From Paludisphaera soli (lineage in GTDB: Bacteria; Planctomycetota; Planctomycetia; Isosphaerales; Isosphaeraceae), in assembly GCF_011064595.1 (NCBI RefSeq), contig NZ_JAALJI010000023.1:1-64000 (forward strand): a stretch of 64,000 nt of DNA. Reading direction: 5' to 3'. The position numbers and the translations under genes are program-made. Within the stretch, counting starts at the first letter, position 1; every line of letters starts with the position of its first letter. Shown piece by piece: positions 2,836 to 26,704 of this stretch. The notes beneath the pieces were generated by a model. It made no database searches. It saw only the letters and a list, made by a program, of their open reading frames with translations, and was not told the origin of the DNA.

Positions 2836-3159
2836 TCCTTCACCCCGGTGGGGGAAGGTGGCCCGGAGGGCGGGATGAGGGGGACCATCAAGGCGGACGG
2901 ATCAAGAGGCGACGGCCCCTCCGTAATTCCTTCCCCCCTGGTGGGGGAAGGTGGCCCGAAGGGCCGGATGAGGGGGACCGTCAAGGCGGACGACGCGGAT
3001 GAGCGATGGCTTCTCGGAACGCCCCCCCCATCCGGCCTGCGGCCACCTTACCCACAAGGGGGGAGGAGAAGACGGGCCGGATGAGCGAGCGACGGCCTTT
3101 CGGCTCGTCCCCCCCTCATCCGGCCCTGCGGGCCACCTTCCCCCGCCAGGGGGGAAGGT
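2836..3159. repeat. Cluster of four hairpin-repeat units (MITE/REP-like family A)
   Basis: Units at about 2836-2897 (+), 2928-2992 (+), 3021-3066 (-) and 3108-3159 (-). A + unit reads CCTTCCCCCC-TGG-TGGGGGAAGG, then GGCCCGAAGGGCC, then GGATGAGGGG, so each unit can fold into two hairpins. After + units a conserved linker starts GACCATCAAGGCGGA (2883-2897) or GACCGTCAAGGCGGA (2977-2991). Facing units give GGATGAGGGG...CCCCATCC arms. The cluster fills most of the gap 2815-3212, where no gene is visible. Confidence 0.85.
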
Positions 3160-3212: not shown

Positions 3213-6200
3213 TCAGTGGCCGCCGCCGCCGCGGCGGTGGCTGTGGGGGGGGGCCGGGAAGAGCCGGATCTCGCCGTTGTTGGCGTCGTGGCACTCGATC
3301 TGGAGGTGCTCGGCGGGGACGCCTTCCTTGATGTGGATCGCCACGCTCAGGCCGGTCTCGGCCTCGATGCGGGCGACGGCCTTGCGCTTGCGGTTGTTGA
3401 GATAGGTCGCCACGGCCGGGGCCACGGTGACCTGGATCCGCCGCACGTCCTCGCGGTGCGAGGCCAGGGCGATGATCCGCATGACGTCGATGGCCATGCT
3501 CTCGGCCGACTTCACGACGCCGGCGCCGCCGCAGTTCGGGCAGTCCTCGTAGACCGACCGCTTGAGGCTGGGCCGGATCCGCTGGCGGGTCATCTCGATG
3601 AGCCCGAACGCGCTCATGCGGAGGACCTTGGTGCGGGCCCGGTCGCGCTTGATGGCCTCTCGCAGGGCGCGCTCGACGCCCCGGCGGTGCCGCTCCTCGC
3701 GCATGTCGATGAAGTCGTTGACGATGACGCCGCCGAGGTCCCGCAGCCGGAGCTGGCGGGCGATCTCCTTGGCGGCCCGGAGGTTCATCTCGTAGGCCGT
3801 ACGCTCGGCGTCGTCCTCGACCCGGAAGTTCCCCGAGTTGACGTCGATCGCCACGAGGGCCTCGGTCTGGTCGATGACGATCGAGCCCCCTTCCGGCAGC
3901 GGCACGTGCCGGCGCTGGATCTTGGCGATCTCGTCCTCGATGCCGTACTTGTGGAACAGGGGGATCTTCTCGTCGTACAGCTTGACCCGGTTGGCGAACC
4001 GGGGCATGACGACGCGGAGGAACTCCTGGGCCCGTTCGAAGGCGGCGGGCTCGTCGATCCAGATGGTGTCGATCTCGGACGTGAAGACGTCGCGGATCGT
4101 GCGGGTGATCAGGTCCGATTCCTGGTAGATCGGGGCCGGGCCCTTGGCCTTCTTGATGCGGCGGAGGATGACCTTCCAGAGCCGCAGCAGGTACGCCAGG
4201 TCGCGGGCCAGCTCGCGCTTGGTGCGCTCCAGGCCGGCGGTGCGGACGATGAAGCCGAGCCCCTTGGGGGGGTTCAGCTCGTGCATGATCTCGCGAAGCT
4301 TGCGGCGCTGGCCCTCGTCGACGATCTTGCGGGAGACGCCGACGCGGTTGAGCCCCGGCATGAGCACGAGGTAGCGGCCGGGGATGCTGATGTAGGTGGA
4401 GAGGGTGGGCCCCTTGGTGCCGATGCTCTCCTTGATGACCTGGATCAGGACCTCGTCGCCGCGGCGGAAGATCTCCTGGATCGGCGGCTTGACCTGGCCC
4501 CGGCCGCGGACGCCGCCGCGACCCCCTTCGGGCTTGTCGCCGCGACGGGGGCGGGCCTCGATGGGGCCGCGCAGGCCCATCTCGCGCTCCAGCTCCTCGA
4601 TCTCCTCGATCTCCTTGCGGATCTCCTGCTCCAGCTCGGGGTCGATCTCCTCCTCGACGACGGCCCGGGGGGGCTCGTCGTGGTCGTGGAGGTCGTCCCC
4701 CTCGCCCAGCAGGTCTTCCAGGTCGTCGACCTCGTCGTCCTCCAGCTCGGGGACGCCGCGGCCGTAGGCCGGGGCGGGCTCGCGGAACGAGACGATCTCG
4801 TCGTCGCCTTCGAGGTCGTCGGCCTCGGCGTCGGCGTCGCCGGCGCGGGGGGCTTCGAGCGATTCCGGCCGCTCGCGGTCGCGGCGGCGGCCCCGGCGTC
4901 GGCGGCGGCGACGGCCGTCGCGGGGCTCGGGGCGGCCCGTCTCGGACTCGGCGTCGGCCTCGACGTCCGCGTCGGTTTCGAGGTCGGCGTCGACGTCCAG
5001 CAGGTCGTCCACGCCCGCGCCGAAGCCGCGGGGGTCCTCGTCCTCGACGGCCTCGTAGCCGCGCCCGGCGGGGGGGGCGGGGCGGTCGCCGAAGTCGAGG
5101 TCGGGCGACCGCAGCCGCTCGCGGCGGGGGACGTAGCCGGGCTCGCCGGCGCGGTCGTTGGCCAGCCGCCGACGACGCTCGACGTCGGTCTCCGCCGCGG
5201 GGGCCGGGGCTCGCTCGGCGGGCGCCGACGGGCGCTCGGCGGCGGCGGGGCGATAGGGGCGTTCGCGTTCGCGCTCACGCTCGCGATCGGCCTCGGGGGC
5301 GCGTTCGGCGGCGGGGCGGAAGCTGGGGATGTCGGCCTCGGCGGCCGGCCGGGCCCGCCGCGCGGGCGGGGCCGGGGGCTCGTCCGGGGTGACGGGCGTG
5401 ATCTCGCGGGGGCGTTCGGGCTCGGGGCGGTCGCCGCCGCGCGAGCGGATGGCGGCGCGGCCGCCGCGACGGCGGGGGGGGGCGTCGACGTCGACGTCCG
5501 GGAAGTCCTCGATCGGGGCCGGGGCCTCGTCGTCGATCGGCTCCAGGATCTCCTCGTCGACGGGCTCGGGCGCCCGGGGGGACCGGCCGCGTCCGCGTCC
5601 GCGGCGGGGCTCGCGCTCGCGGCGGGCGGCCGGCGGGGCGTCGACCTCGGCGTCGGGCCCGAAGTCGGCCTCGGGCTCGCGGGGGGCCGGCGCCTCGGGC
5701 TCGTCGAAGAGCGAGCGCGAGCGGCCGCGATCGTCTCGGTCTCGATCCCGGTCCAGGCCGCGCCCGAAGCCGCCGAACTCGGGCTCGGCGGCGGGCTCGC
5801 GGCTGGCGGGGGCCTGCGGCTGCGGGGCCGGGGGCTGGCGGCGGGCGGTGCGGCTGGGGGGGAGGTCGGGGTCGAACGGCTCGGGCTCCTCGCGGCGGGC
5901 CCGTCCCCAGCGCGGCTCGGCCGGCTCGACGTCCTCGACGTCGCGCTCGCGGCCGTACTCGACCGACTTGGACCAGGAGGTCGGGCCGGCGTCGCGGGGG
6001 GCGCGGCCGGCGCCCCGGCCCTCGTCGTCGCGGTACTCGGGCTCGCGCTCGCGGGCCGGCTCCGGGGCTGGCGGCGGGGGCGGGGGGGCGAATCCGCGCT
6101 CGTCGTCGAGGCCCTCGCCGAAGCTGCGGGGCTGCTCGGAGCGGTCGCGGCGGCCCTTGATCGAGAGGTCGGGACGCTCGCGGGACGGGCGGTCGCGGCG

Positions 6201-6572
6201 GGGCTCGCGCTCGCGGTCGCGGCGGGGCTCGCGGTCCCGGGGGCGGGCGGAGGGCCCGGCGGGGCCGGCCTCGCCTTCGGCGGAGGGGCCGGCGTCGGGG
6301 GCGTCGGGGTCGTCCCCCTCGACGCCGTGGCGGTCGTAATACTGGGCCTCGACGTCGGAGACGTGGAGGAACCCGTTGCGGCCGACCGAGAAGTCGACGA
6401 ACGCGGCCTGGATGGCCGGCTCGAGGTTCACGATCTTGCCCTTATAGATGTTGCCGGTGTAACTCTCGTGGCTGGTCCGCTCGACGTAGAGTTCTTCCAG
6501 GACGCCGTTCTCGATGATGGCGATCCGGCATTCCTCCGGCTGGAGGACGTTGATCAGCATTTCTTTCTTCAT
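3213..6572 (-). CDS. Ribonuclease E/G family endoribonuclease with a giant insertion in the S1 domain
   Basis: Endonuclease of RNA decay and rRNA processing; 1119 residues. Residues 1-80 are the start of the S1 domain (KGKIVNLEPAIQAAFVDF, GRNGFLHVSDVEAQYYD). About 85-690 is a low-complexity insertion rich in Arg, Glu, Asp, Pro and Ala, with repeated RERE/RRDR-like runs. The S1 domain resumes near 692 with IQEIFRRGDEVLIQVIKE and runs into the catalytic core. By alignment with E. coli RNase E, the metal-binding aspartates are D910 (VAIDVNSGN) and D953 (VNDFIDM), and the zinc-link is CPNC near 1010-1013. The C-terminal half of E. coli-type RNase E is absent, so the disordered, charged part has moved inside S1. 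The tail is His/Gly-rich. GGAAG lies just upstream of the ATG. DUF2344 lies upstream on the same strand. Confidence 0.93.
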   Translation of the reverse strand: MKKEMLINVLQPEECRIAIIENGVLEELYVERTSHESYTGNIYKGKIVNLEPAIQAAFVDFSVGRNGFLHVSDVEAQYYDRHGVEGDDPDAPDAGPSAEGEAGPAGPSARPRDREPRRDREREPRRDRPSRERPDLSIKGRRDRSEQPRSFGEGLDDERGFAPPPPPPAPEPAREREPEYRDDEGRGAGRAPRDAGPTSWSKSVEYGRERDVEDVEPAEPRWGRARREEPEPFDPDLPPSRTARRQPPAPQPQAPASREPAAEPEFGGFGRGLDRDRDRDDRGRSRSLFDEPEAPAPREPEADFGPDAEVDAPPAARREREPRRGRGRGRSPRAPEPVDEEILEPIDDEAPAPIEDFPDVDVDAPPRRRGGRAAIRSRGGDRPEPERPREITPVTPDEPPAPPARRARPAAEADIPSFRPAAERAPEADRERERERERPYRPAAAERPSAPAERAPAPAAETDVERRRRLANDRAGEPGYVPRRERLRSPDLDFGDRPAPPAGRGYEAVEDEDPRGFGAGVDDLLDVDADLETDADVEADAESETGRPEPRDGRRRRRRRGRRRDRERPESLEAPRAGDADAEADDLEGDDEIVSFREPAPAYGRGVPELEDDEVDDLEDLLGEGDDLHDHDEPPRAVVEEEIDPELEQEIRKEIEEIEELEREMGLRGPIEARPRRGDKPEGGRGGVRGRGQVKPPIQEIFRRGDEVLIQVIKESIGTKGPTLSTYISIPGRYLVLMPGLNRVGVSRKIVDEGQRRKLREIMHELNPPKGLGFIVRTAGLERTKRELARDLAYLLRLWKVILRRIKKAKGPAPIYQESDLITRTIRDVFTSEIDTIWIDEPAAFERAQEFLRVVMPRFANRVKLYDEKIPLFHKYGIEDEIAKIQRRHVPLPEGGSIVIDQTEALVAIDVNSGNFRVEDDAERTAYEMNLRAAKEIARQLRLRDLGGVIVNDFIDMREERHRRGVERALREAIKRDRARTKVLRMSAFGLIEMTRQRIRPSLKRSVYEDCPNCGGAGVVKSAESMAIDVMRIIALASHREDVRRIQVTVAPAVATYLNNRKRKAVARIEAETGLSVAIHIKEGVPAEHLQIECHDANNGEIRLFPAPPHSHRRGGGGH

Positions 6573-6694: not shown

Positions 6695-7363
6695 TCAGCT
6701 CGGCTCGGGCCGGCCGGCCAGCTCGACGTGGGTGCGGGTCAGGAAGGCCCCGCCGTCGAGGAGGTCGCGGACGCCGAGGCATTCGAGCACTTCCTCGGGC
6801 CGGGCCGAGCCTTCGGGCGACGCCTTCAGGCGGGCGCGGAGGGTCCCTTCTTCGGTCAGTCGGGCGTCGAGCAGGAGCGGGCGGAGGTCGAATTCGACGT
6901 CGCGCTTCCGGTCCGGCCGGCGCCGGGTCACGATGCGGCTTTCGCTCTCCAGCAGGGATGCGAGGGCCGTGGCCAGGCCTTCCCGGCGGCCCTCGGGGAT
7001 CGGCAGTTCATACTCGACCCAGGCGGGCCGAGGGGGGGGCGCGGAGGGTTCCAGCGCCCGGGCTTCCAGCCAGTCGACGCCGGGCGGGGACGCCGCGGCG
7101 AGTCGGGTCAGCAGCTCGTCGGGGTCGGTGGGCTCGGTCAGCTCGAGGTCGACGACCTCGCGGAGCCCGGCGATCCCCAGGCCCATCGCCAGCGCGAAGG
7201 TGATCTTGGGGCGGGGGTTGAAGCCCTGGGTGGCGGCCACCGGGATCGCCGCCCGCCGCATCAGCCGCTCGAAGCAGCGCATGACGTCGTGGTGGCTGGT
7301 CAGGCGGAGGTCGCCGCGCTTGGCGAATCGGAGGCGGACCTTGACGGCGGCGGCTTGGGTCAT
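6695..7363 (-). CDS. DUF2344 / TIGR03936 radical-SAM-linked protein
   Basis: The 222-residue product matches the stand-alone form of the domain found next to or fused with B12-binding radical SAM proteins. Conserved parts are RLRFAKRGDLRLTSHHDVMR near residues 10-29 and the block PVAATQGFNPRPKITFALAMGLGI near 41-64. Its biochemical role is not established. It lies about 120 bp upstream of the RNase E/G gene on the same strand, an association frequently seen for this family and suggestive of an RNA-related role (inference). No strong Shine-Dalgarno is visible before the ATG. No radical SAM partner is in the window. Confidence 0.85.
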   Translation of the reverse strand: MTQAAAVKVRLRFAKRGDLRLTSHHDVMRCFERLMRRAAIPVAATQGFNPRPKITFALAMGLGIAGLREVVDLELTEPTDPDELLTRLAAASPPGVDWLEARALEPSAPPPRPAWVEYELPIPEGRREGLATALASLLESESRIVTRRRPDRKRDVEFDLRPLLLDARLTEEGTLRARLKASPEGSARPEEVLECLGVRDLLDGGAFLTRTHVELAGRPEPS

Positions 7364-7678: not shown

Positions 7679-9631
7679 TCAGGGGGCCGGCTCGCCGGCC
7701 GGTCGGCCCGGCCTGGCCGCGTCGGCGGTCGGCCTCAGGGCGGACTCCAGCAGGGCGACGACCTCGCCGGCGGTGTCGAGCTCCAGGGCCTCGGCGGCCA
7801 CGGCCTGCGCGCGGTCGAGGCGGACGCCGCGGATCAGGCGGCGGACCTCCGGCAGCTGGTGCGGCGGCATGCTCAGCTCGCGCACCCCCAGCCCCAGGAG
7901 GAAGAGCGTGTACAGCAGCTCCCCGCCCATCGACCCGCAGACGCTGCAGGGGATGCCCCGCGCGGCGGCGGCCTCGACCACCCGGGCGATCAGGCGGAGC
8001 ACCGCCGGGTCGGCGGCGCTGTACAGGTCGGCGACGGTCTCGTTGGTCCGGTCCACGGCCAGGGTGTACTGGATCAGGTCGTTGGTGCCGATCGAGAAGA
8101 AGTCCACCTCCTTTGCGAAGCGGTCGGCCATCAGGGCGGACGCCGGCACCTCCACCATGATCCCCAGCGGCAGGGCCTCGCGCAGCGGGCGGCCCTCGGC
8201 GCGGAGCTCGGCGGCGACCTCGCCCATCAGGTCGCGGGCGCGCCTCAGCTCGTCCAGGGTGGTGACCAGGGGCAGCAGGATCCGCACGTCCCCCAGGGCC
8301 GAGACCCGCAGCAGGGCCCGGAGCTGGGTCCGGAACAGCTCCGGCCGCCGCAGCGAGAACCGCAGGCTGCGCAGGCCTAGGGCGGGGTTGGCCTCGACGC
8401 CGCCGCCGCCGATCTGGGGGGCGAGCTTGTCGGCCCCCAGGTCGAGCGTCCGGATCACGACCGGCCGGCCCTCGAGCGACCGCACGGCCTCGGCGTAGGC
8501 CTCGTACTGCTCCTCCTCGGTGGGGGGGGCGACGGAGCGGAGGTACAGGAACTCGGTGCGGTACAGGCCGACGCCGGCGGCGCCCCACTTCAGGCAGGCG
8601 GCCGCCTCGTCGACGAACTCGATGTTCCCCCAGAGGCCGACCTCGACCCCGTCCAGGGTCACGGCGGGGAGGCCCGACTCCTCGGAGAAGGTGCGGTAGC
8701 GGGCCGACCGCGCCTCGGCCGCGGCGCGGTAGCGTTCGAGCGTCGGGGCCGCCGGGTCGAGCACGACCAGGCCGGCCTCGCCGTCGAGGATCGCCGTGCG
8801 GGCCGAGCGGGCCTGGCCGAGGATCGTCCCCAGGCCGGCGACCGCGGGGATCTCCAGGGCCGCGGCGACGATCGCGGTGTGGCTGGCCCGGCCCCCGGAC
8901 TCGGTGGCGAAGCCCAGAACCCGCCTGGGGTCGAGCTGCGCCGCCTCGCTCGGCGTCAGGTCGTGGGCGAGGACGACGGAGGGGGTCGCCAGGTCGTCCT
9001 GGAACGAGCTGGGCCGCAGGCCGACGAGCTGGCCGACGATCCGGGCCTCGATGTCGCGGACGTCGGCGGCCCGCGCCGCCAGGTGGGAGTCGCTGAGGCT
9101 CTCCAGCCGGCCGGCGTGGCCTTCCAGGACCTCGATGACGGCGTGCTCGGCCGAGATCCGGTGCCGCTCGATGCGGGCCCGGGCGTCCGCCCGGAGCTGG
9201 GGGTCCTCGATCATGGCCGCGTGGGCGGCGAGGATCTCGGCGTACTGCGGGCCCAGCCGCTGGCGGGCCTCGGCCTCGGCCTGCGCGCCCTCGGCGGCGG
9301 CGGCGGCCAGCGCCGCCTCCAGCCGGGCGATCTCGCCGGCGACCGCCTCGGGGGCGATCTTGCGGGGGGGGAGCCGCATCCCCTGGGGGTCCAGCACGAC
9401 CACCGGCCCTATGGCGATCCCGGGGCTCACGCCGATCCCCCGGAAGACCTGCTCGCCGGCCGGCTCCGGGTGCGCCGGGGACGGGCCCGCGTCCGGCGCC
9501 GGGGCGGGGCGGGGCGTCGTCGCGGGGGCCGCGGCCGGCGCGAATGCCGGCCGGGCCGGCTCGGGCGAGACGCCTCGCGACGGCCCGCCGTCCCCGCCTC
9601 CCCACGATGTGCCGTCGATCCCCAAGGTCAT
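7679..9631 (-). CDS. ptsI: PTS enzyme I (phosphoenolpyruvate-protein phosphotransferase)
   Basis: Cytosolic enzyme that takes phosphate from PEP on a histidine and passes it to HPr. The 650-residue product has an Ala/Pro-rich extension of about 60 residues before the family start QVFRGIGVSPGIAIGPV. The phospho-histidine is H251 in ESGGRASHTAIVAAALEIPA. The C-terminal PEP-binding barrel shows GLYRTEFLYL, LPLGIMVEVPA, FFSIGTNDLIQYTLAVDR and SVCGSMGGE. There is no GAF domain, unlike proteobacterial PtsP. The ATG at 9629-9631 was chosen over an upstream in-frame ATG (9775) because it overlaps the HPr stop as ATGA and has GGAG upstream, implying translational coupling. Confidence 0.93.
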   Translation of the reverse strand: MTLGIDGTSWGGGDGGPSRGVSPEPARPAFAPAAAPATTPRPAPAPDAGPSPAHPEPAGEQVFRGIGVSPGIAIGPVVVLDPQGMRLPPRKIAPEAVAGEIARLEAALAAAAAEGAQAEAEARQRLGPQYAEILAAHAAMIEDPQLRADARARIERHRISAEHAVIEVLEGHAGRLESLSDSHLAARAADVRDIEARIVGQLVGLRPSSFQDDLATPSVVLAHDLTPSEAAQLDPRRVLGFATESGGRASHTAIVAAALEIPAVAGLGTILGQARSARTAILDGEAGLVVLDPAAPTLERYRAAAEARSARYRTFSEESGLPAVTLDGVEVGLWGNIEFVDEAAACLKWGAAGVGLYRTEFLYLRSVAPPTEEEQYEAYAEAVRSLEGRPVVIRTLDLGADKLAPQIGGGGVEANPALGLRSLRFSLRRPELFRTQLRALLRVSALGDVRILLPLVTTLDELRRARDLMGEVAAELRAEGRPLREALPLGIMVEVPASALMADRFAKEVDFFSIGTNDLIQYTLAVDRTNETVADLYSAADPAVLRLIARVVEAAAARGIPCSVCGSMGGELLYTLFLLGLGVRELSMPPHQLPEVRRLIRGVRLDRAQAVAAEALELDTAGEVVALLESALRPTADAARPGRPAGEPAP

Positions 9632-9960
9632 CGGGGCGGCTCCGCGTCCGGCGGCGGGCCGAGGGGCTCGCCGTCGTCGTCTTCGTAGAATCGGGCTTCC
9701 GCCAGGGCGGCCAGGGCCGCCACGGCCTCCTCGGCGTCGGGGCCGCGCGCCTCCACCTCCAGCCTGGTGCCGCACTCGGCGGCCAGCGAGGTCAGGTCGA
9801 GGATGCTCTTGCCGTTGAAGCAGCCGCCGTTGTAATGAACGCGCACGTCCGACCGATACTTCAGCGCGAGCTTGACGAACTTGTCGGCGGGCCGCAAATG
9901 AAGCCCCAGACTGTTGAGGATCTCGATCCAGCGGCGGGCGACGGTCGTTTCGTGGATCAT
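9628..9960 (-). CDS. HPr-family phosphocarrier protein
   Basis: Small phosphocarrier between enzyme I and EIIA; 110 residues, slightly longer than classical HPr (about 88). The active histidine is H21 in NSLGLHLRPADKF. A serine equivalent to regulatory Ser46 is S52 in NGKSILDLTSL, so both phosphorylation sites are kept. The tail after about residue 95 is acidic and Pro-rich. Its stop overlaps the ptsI start by four bases. The ATG is preceded by only a weak Shine-Dalgarno. With ptsN upstream and no sugar permease, it probably serves a regulatory PTS (inference). Confidence 0.92.
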   Translation of the reverse strand: MIHETTVARRWIEILNSLGLHLRPADKFVKLALKYRSDVRVHYNGGCFNGKSILDLTSLAAECGTRLEVEARGPDAEEAVAALAALAEARFYEDDDGEPLGPPPDAEPPR

Positions 9961-10139
9961 CAGCGGCTCGATCGGCGTGCGCGCCGGAGGCGGTCGGCCC
10001 TCGCGGCGGCCGGCGGTTCGTCCCGCCGGCCGGGGGGCCGTCCCGTCGCGGCGTGTTGTGTCGTCTCGTTCGCGGTTCGTCCCGCCGGCGCGGGCGTCCC
10101 CCCGCGGACGGGGGGGCGTCCGGGCCGGGTCGGGCGTCG

Positions 10140-10610
10140 TCAGACGGCGGCCCCGTCGGCCTCTTCCAGGACCTCGACCACGTCCCGCGGCGACTTCGAC
10201 TGCCGCAGGAAGCTCACGAAGCGTTCGTCCTTCAGGTGTCGGGAGATGTTCTCGAGCGCCCGCAGGTGGTCGCCGGGCTGGTTGTGGGGCGAGACCAGCA
10301 GGAAGAAGATGTCGACCGGCTCGCCGTCCAGGGCCGCGAAGTCGACCCCGTGCGACGAGAGGGCCACGGTGCCGATCAGCCGCTGCAGGGTCGGGTGCCG
10401 GGTGTGGGGCACCGCCACCCCCATGCCGATGCCGGTCGAGCCCAGCTCCTCGCGGTTGAGGATCGCGCGGATGACGCTCTCGACCTCGCCGTCGGGGAGC
10501 TGGCCGGCCGCGTTCAGGGCGGCGACCATCTCGCGGATCGCCTCTTCCTTGGTCGTGGCCTTCAGGTCCACGATGATGCTGTCCCGGACCACGAAATCCA
10601 ATAACTTCAT
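10140..10610 (-). CDS. ptsN: PTS EIIA component, fructose/nitrogen-regulatory type
   Basis: EIIA domain that accepts phosphate from HPr and in known PTS-Ntr systems regulates other proteins rather than sugar uptake. The product is 156 residues and a single domain throughout. The phospho-histidine lies in GVAVPHTRHPTL. Other family blocks are STGIGMGVAVPH and FFLLVSPHNQPGDHLRALE. The start MKLLDFVV at 10608-10610 is preferred to an ATG four codons upstream because GGAGGGG lies five bases before it. It lies between hpf and the HPr gene, about 180 bp before the latter. Confidence 0.92.
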   Translation of the reverse strand: MKLLDFVVRDSIIVDLKATTKEEAIREMVAALNAAGQLPDGEVESVIRAILNREELGSTGIGMGVAVPHTRHPTLQRLIGTVALSSHGVDFAALDGEPVDIFFLLVSPHNQPGDHLRALENISRHLKDERFVSFLRQSKSPRDVVEVLEEADGAAV

Positions 10611-10835
10611 CAGCCCCTCCATCGACGGGCCGCCAGGCCGATCGCTTGCTATTCGTCCCGGCCCCGCCCCCGCACCTCGAGCGTTCGAAGGGGGGCGATG
10701 CGTCCGGGTCCCGGCCGCCGGTCGGGGTCGGCGAAGGCCGACCTTGGGGTTCCGCTCGGGGCGGAGGCGCCGGGAGACGTCCCCGACAGAACGCGCCTCG
10801 GGTTGGTTCCAAACTCGTCCGGGGATCCGCCCCGG

Positions 10836-11177
10836 TCAACCGGCCTCGCCGACCGACCGCGAGGGGTCCCCGCCGTGAGGGACGTCGCCTTTGTGGTTCT
10901 GTGACTTCTCTTTGTATCGCCGCAGCTGGGTCTCGATCTTGTGCAGGCACTGGTCCGCCGCCGCCTCGAGCGTCGGGCCGATCTCGGTCGCCACGAAGTC
11001 GTTCTTGTGCTCGGCGGAGACCTGGAACTCGACGTTCCACGCCCCCTTCTCGTGCGAGGTCGTGATCTCGATCGCCATCAGGCGGCCGAACTTGGTCAGC
11101 TTCTCCGCCTTCTCCGCCAGGCGTTGCCGCTGGTCCGGGGTCAGCTCGCCATGCCGCGTCGAGATCTCGATTTGCAC
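10836..11177 (-). CDS. hpf: Ribosome hibernation promoting factor, short form
   Basis: Binds the ribosome decoding region during slow growth and blocks translation (family knowledge). The 113-residue product has the N-terminal HPF/RaiA fold (MQIEISTRHGELTPDQRQRL, AEHKNDFVATEIGPTLEAAADQ, HKIETQLRRYKEK) and lacks the long-form C-terminal dimerisation domain; the tail is Gly/Asp-rich. It starts with GTG, with AAGGAG eight bases upstream. It leads a gene set, hpf-ptsN-HPr-ptsI, like the proteobacterial rpoN-hpf-ptsN-npr region, though rpoN and rapZ are not here. Confidence 0.92.
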   Translation of the reverse strand: MQIEISTRHGELTPDQRQRLAEKAEKLTKFGRLMAIEITTSHEKGAWNVEFQVSAEHKNDFVATEIGPTLEAAADQCLHKIETQLRRYKEKSQNHKGDVPHGGDPSRSVGEAG

Positions 11178-17176: not shown

Positions 17177-17371
17177 CCTTCCCCCTGGCGGGGGAAGGTG
17201 GCCCGAAGGGCCGGATGAGGGGGGGACGAGCGAGTCGGCCGACGGAGTTCCAGCGGGGCCGGCCGAGGCCGTCGGTCAGGCGGGCCGGGCGTCGGACTCC
17301 AAAGCTCCCCGCCAGCGTCGCCCCCTCATCGGACCGCTTCGCGGTCTGTCTTCCCCGCGAGGGGGGAAGAC
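17177..17371. repeat. Family A repeat pair, partly diverged
   Basis: A + unit at 17177-17226 is a close match to the 2928-2992 unit. A - unit at 17320-17371 keeps CCCCTCATC and the GGGGGGAAGA end but has a different middle palindrome (GGACCGCTTCGCGGTC). The two face each other across about 93 bp, in the gap between convergent genes. Confidence 0.75.
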
Positions 17372-21629: not shown

Positions 21630-21772
21630 CTTCCCTCCCCCCCTGGTGGGGGAAGGTGTCCCGAAGGGGCGGATGAGGGGGACCATCAAGGCAGACGGCG
21701 CGAGGGAGCGACGGTCTCTTGCGACGCCCCCCTCATCCGGCCTGCGGCCACCTTCTCCCACGAGGGGAGGAG
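21630..21772. repeat. Family A element: facing pair with linker (second of two)
   Basis: + unit 21630-21695 and - unit 21726-21772, same architecture and length as 21443-21582. The linker begins GACCATCAAGGCAGACGG. Two near-identical elements in tandem suggest repeated insertion or duplication. Confidence 0.8.
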
Positions 21773-26462: not shown

Positions 26463-26704
26463 TCCTTCCCCCCTCGCGGGGGAAGGTGGCCCGCAGGGCC
26501 GGATGAGGGGGGAGACGAGCACGATAGCCGGTGGAGGATCGGGCGAGCTGACCTTCGCCGATCGTCCTTCCCCCCTGGTGGGAGAAGGTGGCCGAAGGCC
26601 GGATGAGGGGGCGCCTCGAAAAGCCGTCGGCCCCTCGCCTAATCCGCCTTGATGGTCCCCCTCATCCGGCCCTGCGGGCCACCTTCCCCCGCCAGGGGGG
26701 AAGG
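26463..26704. repeat. Family A repeats: three units, one pair with inverted linker
   Basis: + units at 26463-26512 and 26566-26612, - unit at 26643-26704. In the last pair the linker is present in reverse complement: it ends CCGCCTTGATGGTC beside the - unit, and AAGCCGTCGG lies near the + unit. The gap between the TPR gene and nsrR (26410-26726) holds only these repeats. Confidence 0.8.

Follow-up and report, generated by a model that had tools for sequence, protein, structure and literature searches.

In Escherichia coli RNase E, the scaffold at the C-terminus is disordered and carries short motifs for docking along with Arg-rich segments that bind RNA (outlined in PMC4245959). Another disordered segment has been described inside the S1 domain: according to the account given for the Caulobacter crescentus enzyme (PDB 4OXP; Voss et al. 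2014, PMC4245959), RNase E of alphaproteobacteria and plants has a charged, disordered insert of ~50-150 aa in a loop of S1. In Caulobacter, this insert is partly helical and juts into the predicted RNA site, its acidic side chains were suggested to mimic RNA, and RhlB is bound by a fragment that contains it; in Arabidopsis, deletion of the S1 insert led to lower activity (PMC4245959). For planctomycetes, the size table of a 2011 review lists RNase E/G proteins of 509-588 aa, which by size were considered to be without the potential for a degradosome-like complex (PMC3071783, Table 2).

The window analysed here, a stretch of 64,000 nucleotides from Paludisphaera soli, encodes an RNase E/G in which the S1 domain is interrupted by a far longer segment. 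The gene and its main parts, together with the upstream neighbor, are as follows:

3213..6572, minus strand: RNase E/G family ribonuclease, 1119 aa plus stop
6321..6572, minus strand: residues 1-84, the N-terminal RNase H-like segment and the first S1 half; F58/F68 align to E. coli F57/F67
4503..6320, minus strand: S1 insert, residues 85-690, ~606 aa, modelled as disordered, fraction charged 0.46
3216..4502, minus strand: second S1 half, 5' sensor, catalytic core, Zn-link and small domain, by alignment to E. coli
6695..7363, minus strand: upstream neighbor on the same strand as the RNase E/G gene, a TIGR03936 radical SAM-associated protein

In a profile search of the genome, PF10150 matched the 1119-aa frame alone (E <= 0.001); PF10150 spans residues 729-998 (341 bits, cut-off 25.5), PF20833 (small domain) spans residues 1011-1093, and TIGR00757 scores 477 bits (cut-off 326). 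E. coli RNase E residues 2-79 align to residues 3-80 and E. coli 87-469 to residues 695-1075, with K720 of the second S1 half corresponding to E. coli K112. F58, F68, K720, R777, T778, D910, D953, C1011, and C1014 are invariant in an alignment of 48 rows; we take D910/D953 to be the catalytic Asp pair, C1011/C1014 the Zn-link CxxC, R777/T778 the 5'-sensor residues, and F58/F68/K720 the S1 residues that contact RNA. The small-domain match ends just 26 residues before the C-terminus, so that the protein has no C-terminal scaffold, as the earlier note had reported, and the 1068-aa NCBIfam RNase E model has its best match at model positions 87-467 only.

The S1 loop is broken after residue 80-84 and resumes at ~693-695 (the E. 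coli site is 79/87), in close agreement with the earlier note, which had placed the break at ~80 and the resumption at ~692 and had described about 600 disordered residues rich in Arg, Glu, Asp, and Pro. The composition of residues 85-690 (R 18.2, E 15.2, P 15.2, D 11.9, A 11.7, and K 0.7%) bears out that description. AlphaFold2, run on the 48-row alignment with four family-type rows (the window, L111, L112, and L117), predicts that both S1 halves still fold around the insert: pLDDT means of ten-residue blocks are 81-97 over residues 1-80 (90-97 over residues 41-80) and 82-96 over residues 691-730. Within the insert, the block means are 31-62, except for 91, 93, and 78 over residues 641-670, so that the insert is predicted to be disordered with one confident helix at residues 645-665. 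A Foldseek search with the whole model matched chains of E. coli RNase E as well as 4OXP. The mixed-charge repeats that had also been claimed turned out to be a minor element, the best Tandem Repeats Finder array being a 24-bp unit x2.2 at 6189-6240; between species, it is short conserved motifs rather than repeats that recur in the insert.

The loop that is extended is the same as in the Caulobacter structure: there, too, S1 is picked up again at the equivalent position (residue 693 aligns with position 162 of the 4OXP chain), and the two inserts are alike in being charged, predicted to be disordered, partly helical, and variable in sequence (PMC4245959). Plant chloroplast RNase E also shares an S1 insertion by the published description, albeit one within the reported ~50-150 aa range (PMC4245959). 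Four of five alphaproteobacterial genes that were fetched have inserts of 52, 123, 139, and 227 aa together with C-terminal tails of 253-558 aa, whereas the protein in the window combines an insert of 606 aa with no tail. The E. coli scaffold would resemble the insert in its inferred working (a disordered region with short motifs and Arg-rich segments), but it sits after the catalytic domain, where the protein in the window has none. The insert is therefore an extreme, scaffold-like variant of the S1 insert that has already been published.

Across the Isosphaeraceae-type family, an insert of 520-926 aa (fraction charged 0.33-0.48) is present in 26/26 intact genes, and the C-terminal tails of the 25 intact relatives extend at most 29 aa beyond the end of the query. 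Two other families of the class (f3 and f4) have inserts of 432-493 aa in 8/8 genes. The remaining, short RNase E/G proteins of the class share the catalytic core and mostly end at about the same place, but their S1 loop is only 7-72 aa longer than the query core without its insert (11 loci). A small conserved loop shared by the phylum, which the earlier note had raised as the counter-case, is found in many other lineages but not in the Isosphaeraceae-type family, and the family contradicts the planctomycete size class tabulated in the 2011 review (PMC3071783). An assembly or annotation artefact can be put aside as extremely improbable: two congeners have frame breaks inside the insert, one of them with an adapter-like stretch, but the frame is intact in 26 genomes, including single- and few-contig assemblies, and dN is lower than dS, comparative data that refute this explanation. 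Because dN < dS holds throughout the insert relative to three congeners, and because frame and composition are common to all 26 intact family genes, the insert is taken as coding beyond doubt of frame; it is coding sequence.

Within the insert, six short islands and one helix stand out by conservation:

6108..6182, minus strand: island 1, RERPDLSIKGRRDRSEQPRSFGEGL, with the F[GA]xG[LIV] motif, residues 131-155; F[GA].G[LIVM] in 26/26 family genes
5847..5867, minus strand: island 2, DLPPSRT, residues 236-242; LPPS[RK] in 20/26
5583..5606, minus strand: RG-rich box RRGRGRGR, residues 323-330; conserved in the alignment, also with the genus left out
5433..5462, minus strand: island 3, GRAAIRSRGG, residues 371-380; R.[AS]IR.R in 25/26
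5115..5153, minus strand: island 4, RAGEPGYVPRRER, residues 474-486; [FYW][VI]PRR in 22/26
4881..4913, minus strand: Arg tract, residues 554-564; R{5,} in 26/26
4575..4646, minus strand: acidic helix, IDPELEQEIRKEIEEIEELEREMG, residues 643-666; EL..EI and EI..LE in 26/26

The order of the motifs is identical wherever they are present, the RG box being placed by alignment only. F[GA].G[LIVM] occurs in one to several copies per insert, with 42 copies in total across the 26 inserts vs 0.42 expected from shuffles, an expectation that takes no account of shared ancestry. By eye, the acidic helix was judged to be amphipathic.

In comparisons with three congeners, dN/dS was 0.09, 0.10, and 0.10 for the islands, 0.59, 0.64, and 0.54 for the spacers, and 0.15, 0.13, and 0.21 for the catalytic core. 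When only the other 22 species were used to define the islands, identity within the genus was 87/92, 87/93, and 90/92 at the islands, and 183/381, 239/415, and 261/402 in the rest of the insert. The six collinear motifs and the helix are under a constraint similar in strength to that on the catalytic core, but the spacers diverge fast, and most of the insert evolves nearly freely. The latter is what would be expected of a permissive loop that grew by slippage in a GC-rich genome and is tolerated as an entropic linker without a function of its own; the variable length (520-926 aa), the GC content of ~0.82 across most of the insert, and the repeated lengthening within the phylum (an insert of at least 200 aa needs 6 changes on an 88-row tree) agree with it as well. 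We consider it very unlikely as a full account, given that the islands and helix are constrained and that every intact family gene has kept the insert.

The charged composition and the Arg tracts would also suit a driver of condensates, in which a mixed-charge disordered region gives rise to RNase E bodies like BR-bodies, and charge segregation is above that of shuffles in 26/26 inserts (z 1.1 to 6.9). In Sinorhizobium meliloti, BR-bodies were described to require the C-terminal tail of RNase E (PMC12691583). That tail, however, is more segregated (z 9.9, with a patch number z of 1.7) than the insert in the window (4.4 and 0.6), and alternating patches in the family are for the most part about as numerous as in shuffles (z -1.3 to 3.2), so that a role of this kind seems quite unlikely.

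The conserved collinear motifs, the Arg-rich tracts, and the predicted disorder fit a degradosome-type scaffold that is built into S1. It is proposed that the protein is an RNase E/G with its key residues intact, whose S1 domain hosts a disordered scaffold of ~600 residues that docks partner proteins and feeds RNA to the nuclease; a probability of roughly 0.55 is assigned to this reading. The flexible chain would hang from the S1 loop, adjoining the RNA channel, and would present in fixed order I) F[GA]xG[LIV]x[DE], II) LPPSRT, III) the RG box, IV) GRAAIRSRGG, V) RAGEPGYVPRRER, VI) the Arg tract, and VII) the acidic helix, after which the chain returns to S1. The motifs with a hydrophobic core may dock partner proteins, with DEAD-box helicases and PNPase as candidates, the Arg/RG tracts may bind RNA and feed it in, and the acidic helix would lie near the S1 RNA path and may gate RNA as proposed for the shorter Caulobacter insert. 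In effect, an E. coli-type C-terminal platform would be placed on the substrate-entry domain instead. Docking, feeding, and gating are what we infer from this layout. A PNPase gene is present in 6/6 genomes searched, and the genome of the window contains two strong DEAD-box helicase matches. None of the insert motifs was recognized as one that docks PNPase or a helicase, and F[GA]xG[LIV]x[DE] is not known to have been described as a docking motif. Searched at the DNA level in 10 genomes, [RS]FGEGLx[DE] gave seven hits, five of which fall within RNase E as judged by their position, with one hit for the backward control. The matches outside RNase E were rejected as partner clues: the one in G017 lies in a 680-aa frame judged by eye to be unrelated, and G003 has no RFGEGL in an open frame of more than 150 aa.

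A narrower function could be assigned to the helix, namely that of a nuclease gate, in which it competes with RNA in the channel until displaced by substrate or partner, with the disordered part as a tether. The helix is strongly conserved and is the only part of the insert predicted to fold with confidence, and it lies in the same loop as the Caulobacter insert with its suggested RNA mimicry (PMC4245959). Such a gate leaves the other six islands unexplained, however, and a simpler helix pattern is found in 21/26 family genes but in 0/8 of the f3/f4 inserts; as the principal function it is considered unlikely. For the scaffold reading, the motifs offer concrete candidates for partner docking. 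If they do dock partners, degradosome assembly would have been rebuilt inside the RNA-binding domain, the position of the scaffold would not be fixed, and partner binding would be coupled directly to RNA entry. The family is also an extreme example from which to approach the role of the alphaproteobacterial and plant S1 inserts.

The earlier note had suggested that the scaffold may have moved into S1; scaffold-like motifs, Arg-rich tracts, and the missing tail speak for a scaffold at this site, but not for a move from the C-terminus. Because a tail of at least 60 aa is present in 0/52 loci with loops of 12-100 aa, the scaffold may instead have originated at its present site. Tails of at least 60 aa are present in 6 and absent from 47 loci with inserts of at least 100 aa, vs 22 and 73 with shorter inserts (Fisher p 0.085). 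With the limit set at 12 aa, the counts are 6 and 99 vs 22 and 21 (p 1e-9), a difference confounded by lineage, and phylogenetically independent pairs on the tree (4-5) gave no significant association of insert and tail (5 pairs, median p 1). A trade-off between insert and tail across the phylum is thus unsupported once ancestry is considered.

Outside the family, F[GA]xG[LIV]x[DE] occurs in 8/8 f3/f4 inserts (14 copies vs 0.03 expected from shuffles). The AIR, GYVPRR, and LPPS motifs are found in 0/8 and R-tracts in 2/8 of these inserts, and judged by pattern matches the F motif is the only insert motif common to the family and f3/f4. The strict form is absent from the 5/5 measurable Gemmataceae/Gemmatales-titled inserts (L114, L115, L137, L138, and L153); looser forms are seen in L153. 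It occurs in 0/27 large C-terminal tails and in 2/39 large N-terminal extensions (0.04 expected), the latter measured from stop to stop with start codons unchecked, and these two cases are suggestive of relocation. It is tentatively put forward, as a possibility somewhat short of even, that the whole family, possibly along with others in the class, has a degradosome platform nested in S1 and organized around F[GA]xG[LIV]x[DE], with recruitment and RNA entry at one site, and that scaffolds were built at the N-terminus, the S1 loop, and the C-terminus within one phylum. On the tree, a single branch (SH-aLRT 99) separates the 18 rows with inserts of at least 500 aa from all others. Constraining the 33 long-insert rows of the class together was not rejected (p-AU 0.554), a value that does not prove a single gain of the long insert. 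It is also observed that the same S1 loop was lengthened several times within the phylum.

The window's RNase E/G is encoded by one translated frame, the only match to PF10150 found by profile search in the 7.97-Mb genome, with the following layout.

6572..3213, minus strand: RNase E/G ORF, 1119 aa
residues 729-998: RNase_E_G domain (Pfam)
residues 1011-1093: small domain PF20833 (Pfam)

Alignment to the E. coli chain gives two blocks (3-80 to 2-79 and 695-1075 to 87-469), the ~7-residue E. coli S1 loop being exchanged for ~600 residues, as the earlier note had read from the sequence in placing the split of the S1 domain after residue ~80 and its resumption at ~692. In E. coli RNase E, D303 and D346 are catalytic, C404 and C407 form the Zn-link, R169 and T170 belong to the 5' sensor, and F57, F67, and K112 are S1 contacts. 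By the same alignment, their counterparts are D910/D953, C1011/C1014, R777/T778, and F58, F68, and K720, all without variation in a 48-row alignment. Since the core is complete by residue, the insert (residues 85-690) is an addition to a nuclease that should be functional. Directly upstream on the same strand lies a TIGR03936 radical SAM-associated gene (6695-7363, minus strand); also upstream is a PTS-related cluster (7679-11177, minus strand) that includes ptsI, a PTS IIA-like protein whose scores fall short of its model cut-offs, and, slightly below its own cut-off, an HPF/YfiA-like ribosome hibernation factor. Downstream, hemB and hemL follow on the same strand.

The disorder proposed for these residues was also recovered in an AlphaFold2 model built on the 48-row alignment (mean pLDDT 63.6). 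Block means were 90-97 at residues 41-80 and 82-96 at 691-730, and 31-62 within the insert (a weak helix at 463-472 reaching 60), apart from a predicted helix at 645-665 (blocks 91, 93, and 78).

Among 59 genomes of relatives, an RNase E/G match was found in 55. The window's family, Isosphaeraceae, accounts for 36 of these genomes, with 32 matched and the four misses being 68-85% complete. An intact single frame with both S1 halves was present in 25 of the 32, and in all 26 intact genes, the window's included, the insert spans 520-926 aa. Left out of these lengths were four partial or contig-end genes (G012, G021, G033, and G034) and three loci (L044, L059, and L075) that have no single frame with both halves; islands are readable across frames in L044 and L059. 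L044 (genome G002) switches frame twice inside the insert, and L059 (G001) has a frame break, an apparent assembly artefact, beside a stretch whose translations EGHTSEL and GRAHV resemble residual sequencing adapter.

Most of the insert is unalignable between species, and short islands recur in constant order: RERPD..GRRDRS...R.FGEGL, DLPPSRT, an RG box, GRAAIRSRGG, RAGEPGYVPRRER, an Arg tract, and IDPELEQEIRKEIEEIEELEREMG. The motifs F[GA].G[LIVM] and R{5,} occur in 26/26 family inserts, R.[AS]IR.R in 25/26, [FYW][VI]PRR in 22/26, and LPPS[RK] in 20/26; shuffling, which ignores ancestry, gives means of 0.1-2.6 copies across the 26 inserts together. Against the congeners L051, L049, and L052, dN/dS is 0.09, 0.10, and 0.10 for islands, 0.59, 0.64, and 0.54 for spacers, and 0.15, 0.13, and 0.21 for the core. 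Circularity was avoided by defining the islands anew, at 94 positions, on the 22 species that belong to other genera; within-genus identity is 87/92, 87/93, and 90/92 at these, and 183/381, 239/415, and 261/402 in the rest of the insert. The insert is real, family-wide, and under selection.

In families f3 and f4 of the same class, the insert measures 432-493 aa in 8/8 genes, a ninth (G051) lying at a contig end; the remaining 11 loci of the class have 7-72 aa. The eight f3/f4 inserts all carry the F motif (F[GA].G[LIVM], 20 copies), 14 of the 20 copies with an acidic residue two positions further on (0.03 expected from shuffles, which ignore ancestry), and none has the AIR (GRAAIRSRGG), GYVPRR, or LPPS motifs. 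The RNase E of a locus titled Singulisphaera sp. GP187 (L143, insert 429 aa) groups with f3 instead of the window's family, and the title may be wrong. Among the best 80 matches, five measurable of six Gemmataceae/Gemmatales-titled loci have inserts of 204, 252, 275, 382, and 395 aa, all five lacking the strict F motif, F[GA]xG[LIV]x[DE] (L153 has looser forms, e.g., FTAGLDDE); Pirellulales-titled loci (L118, L123, L124, and L141) have 27-53 aa; and in 14 loci with Phycisphaerae, -ales, -aceae, or Phycisphaera in their titles the insert is 8-10 aa long, with C-terminal tails of 93-519 aa in 11 of the 14. Homologues of RNase E are reportedly classified by scaffold position. Insert and tail lengths are compared below.

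S1 insert length and loci with a tail of at least 60 aa, among 148 distinct loci with both S1 halves (161 inspected in both sets; a non-random sample, long frames having been favoured in choosing loci of other classes, and named loci being the best 80 matches)
<12 aa: 43 loci, tail in 22
12-60 aa: 48 loci, tail in 0
60-100 aa: 4 loci, tail in 0
100-300 aa: 14 loci, tail in 5
300-520 aa: 12 loci, tail in 1
>=520 aa: 27 loci, tail in 0

Among regions of at least 100 aa in these loci, the strict F motif occurs in 35/53 S1 inserts, 2/39 N-terminal extensions, and 0/27 tails. The RNase E of L083 / L175, without an S1 insert, has PFGFGLFEE in an N-terminal extension of 591 aa, measured from stop to stop; this sequence is close to the f4 insert motif and possibly the same motif elsewhere in the protein. 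In family f29 (L078-L082), an S1 insert of 222-268 aa and a tail of 212-345 aa occur together, as in alphaproteobacterial RNase E.

In a tree of 88 cores with the insert excluded, a branch with SH-aLRT 99 separates the 18 rows with inserts of at least 500 aa from all others, while an insert of at least 200 aa takes six changes (a tail of at least 60 aa, five). Forcing the 33 long-insert rows of the class into one clade was not rejected (p-AU 0.554). The long insert may therefore have arisen once in the class and grown later in the window's family. The S1 loop was also lengthened elsewhere in the phylum.

The insert is an extreme variant of a known architecture. In Voss et al. (PMC4245959), S1 insertions of alphaproteobacteria and plants are ~50-150 aa, charged, and predicted disordered; in Caulobacter the insert, which is shorter, has a helix reaching into the predicted RNA site, and RhlB is bound by a fragment that comprises S1, the insert, and the 5' sensor. 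PMC5436854 terms an S1 insertion of ~50 aa typical of alphaproteobacteria. Four alphaproteobacterial genes measured here have inserts of 52, 123, 139, and 227 aa plus tails of 253-558 aa, the longest insert (L200, Methylobacterium bullatum plasmid 1) exceeding the published range; a fifth, from Sinorhizobium, lacks an N-terminal S1 match in the same frame. The window's insert sits at Caulobacter's S1 site but is far longer. For Planctomycetes, PMC3071783 lists RNase E/G of 509-588 aa and, going by size, predicts no potential to form a degradosome; the insert was not found in titles and abstract openings of open-licence literature on RNase E or the degradosome in planctomycetes, Isosphaera, and Gemmata, and RNase E is not discussed in the text examined of a Tuwongella proteome paper (PMC8567305).

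Short conserved motifs on a fast-evolving disordered background look like docking sites, and the Arg and RG tracts suit RNA. PNPase was present in 6/6 genomes searched, and among 20 PF00270 matches the window's genome has two strong DEAD-box helicases, one with a C-terminal region that appears RNA-binding-like by eye; these proteins are candidate partners. Because of these docking-like motifs, RNA-suited tracts, and candidate partners, and the Caulobacter helix and RhlB precedents, we favour, at a probability of roughly 0.55, a nested scaffold that possibly also gates. Its docking motifs would recruit partner proteins, the Arg/RG tracts would feed RNA to the nuclease, and the acidic helix leading back into the second S1 half may provide gating. 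The case for a scaffold function is good but indirect.

Lastly, a REP-like palindromic repeat, CATCCGGCCCTTCGGGCCACCTTC, has eight matches in the window with at most 3 mismatches (0.00 expected).

2854-2877, 2947-2970, 17194-17217, 21652-21675, 26482-26505, minus strand: REP-like repeat
3117-3140, 26663-26686, plus strand: REP-like repeat
404-427: eighth copy, 3 mismatches

Genome-wide, 68 copies lie on each strand (control 0), and stem variants such as CCGCCCCTTCGGGGC preserve pairing.
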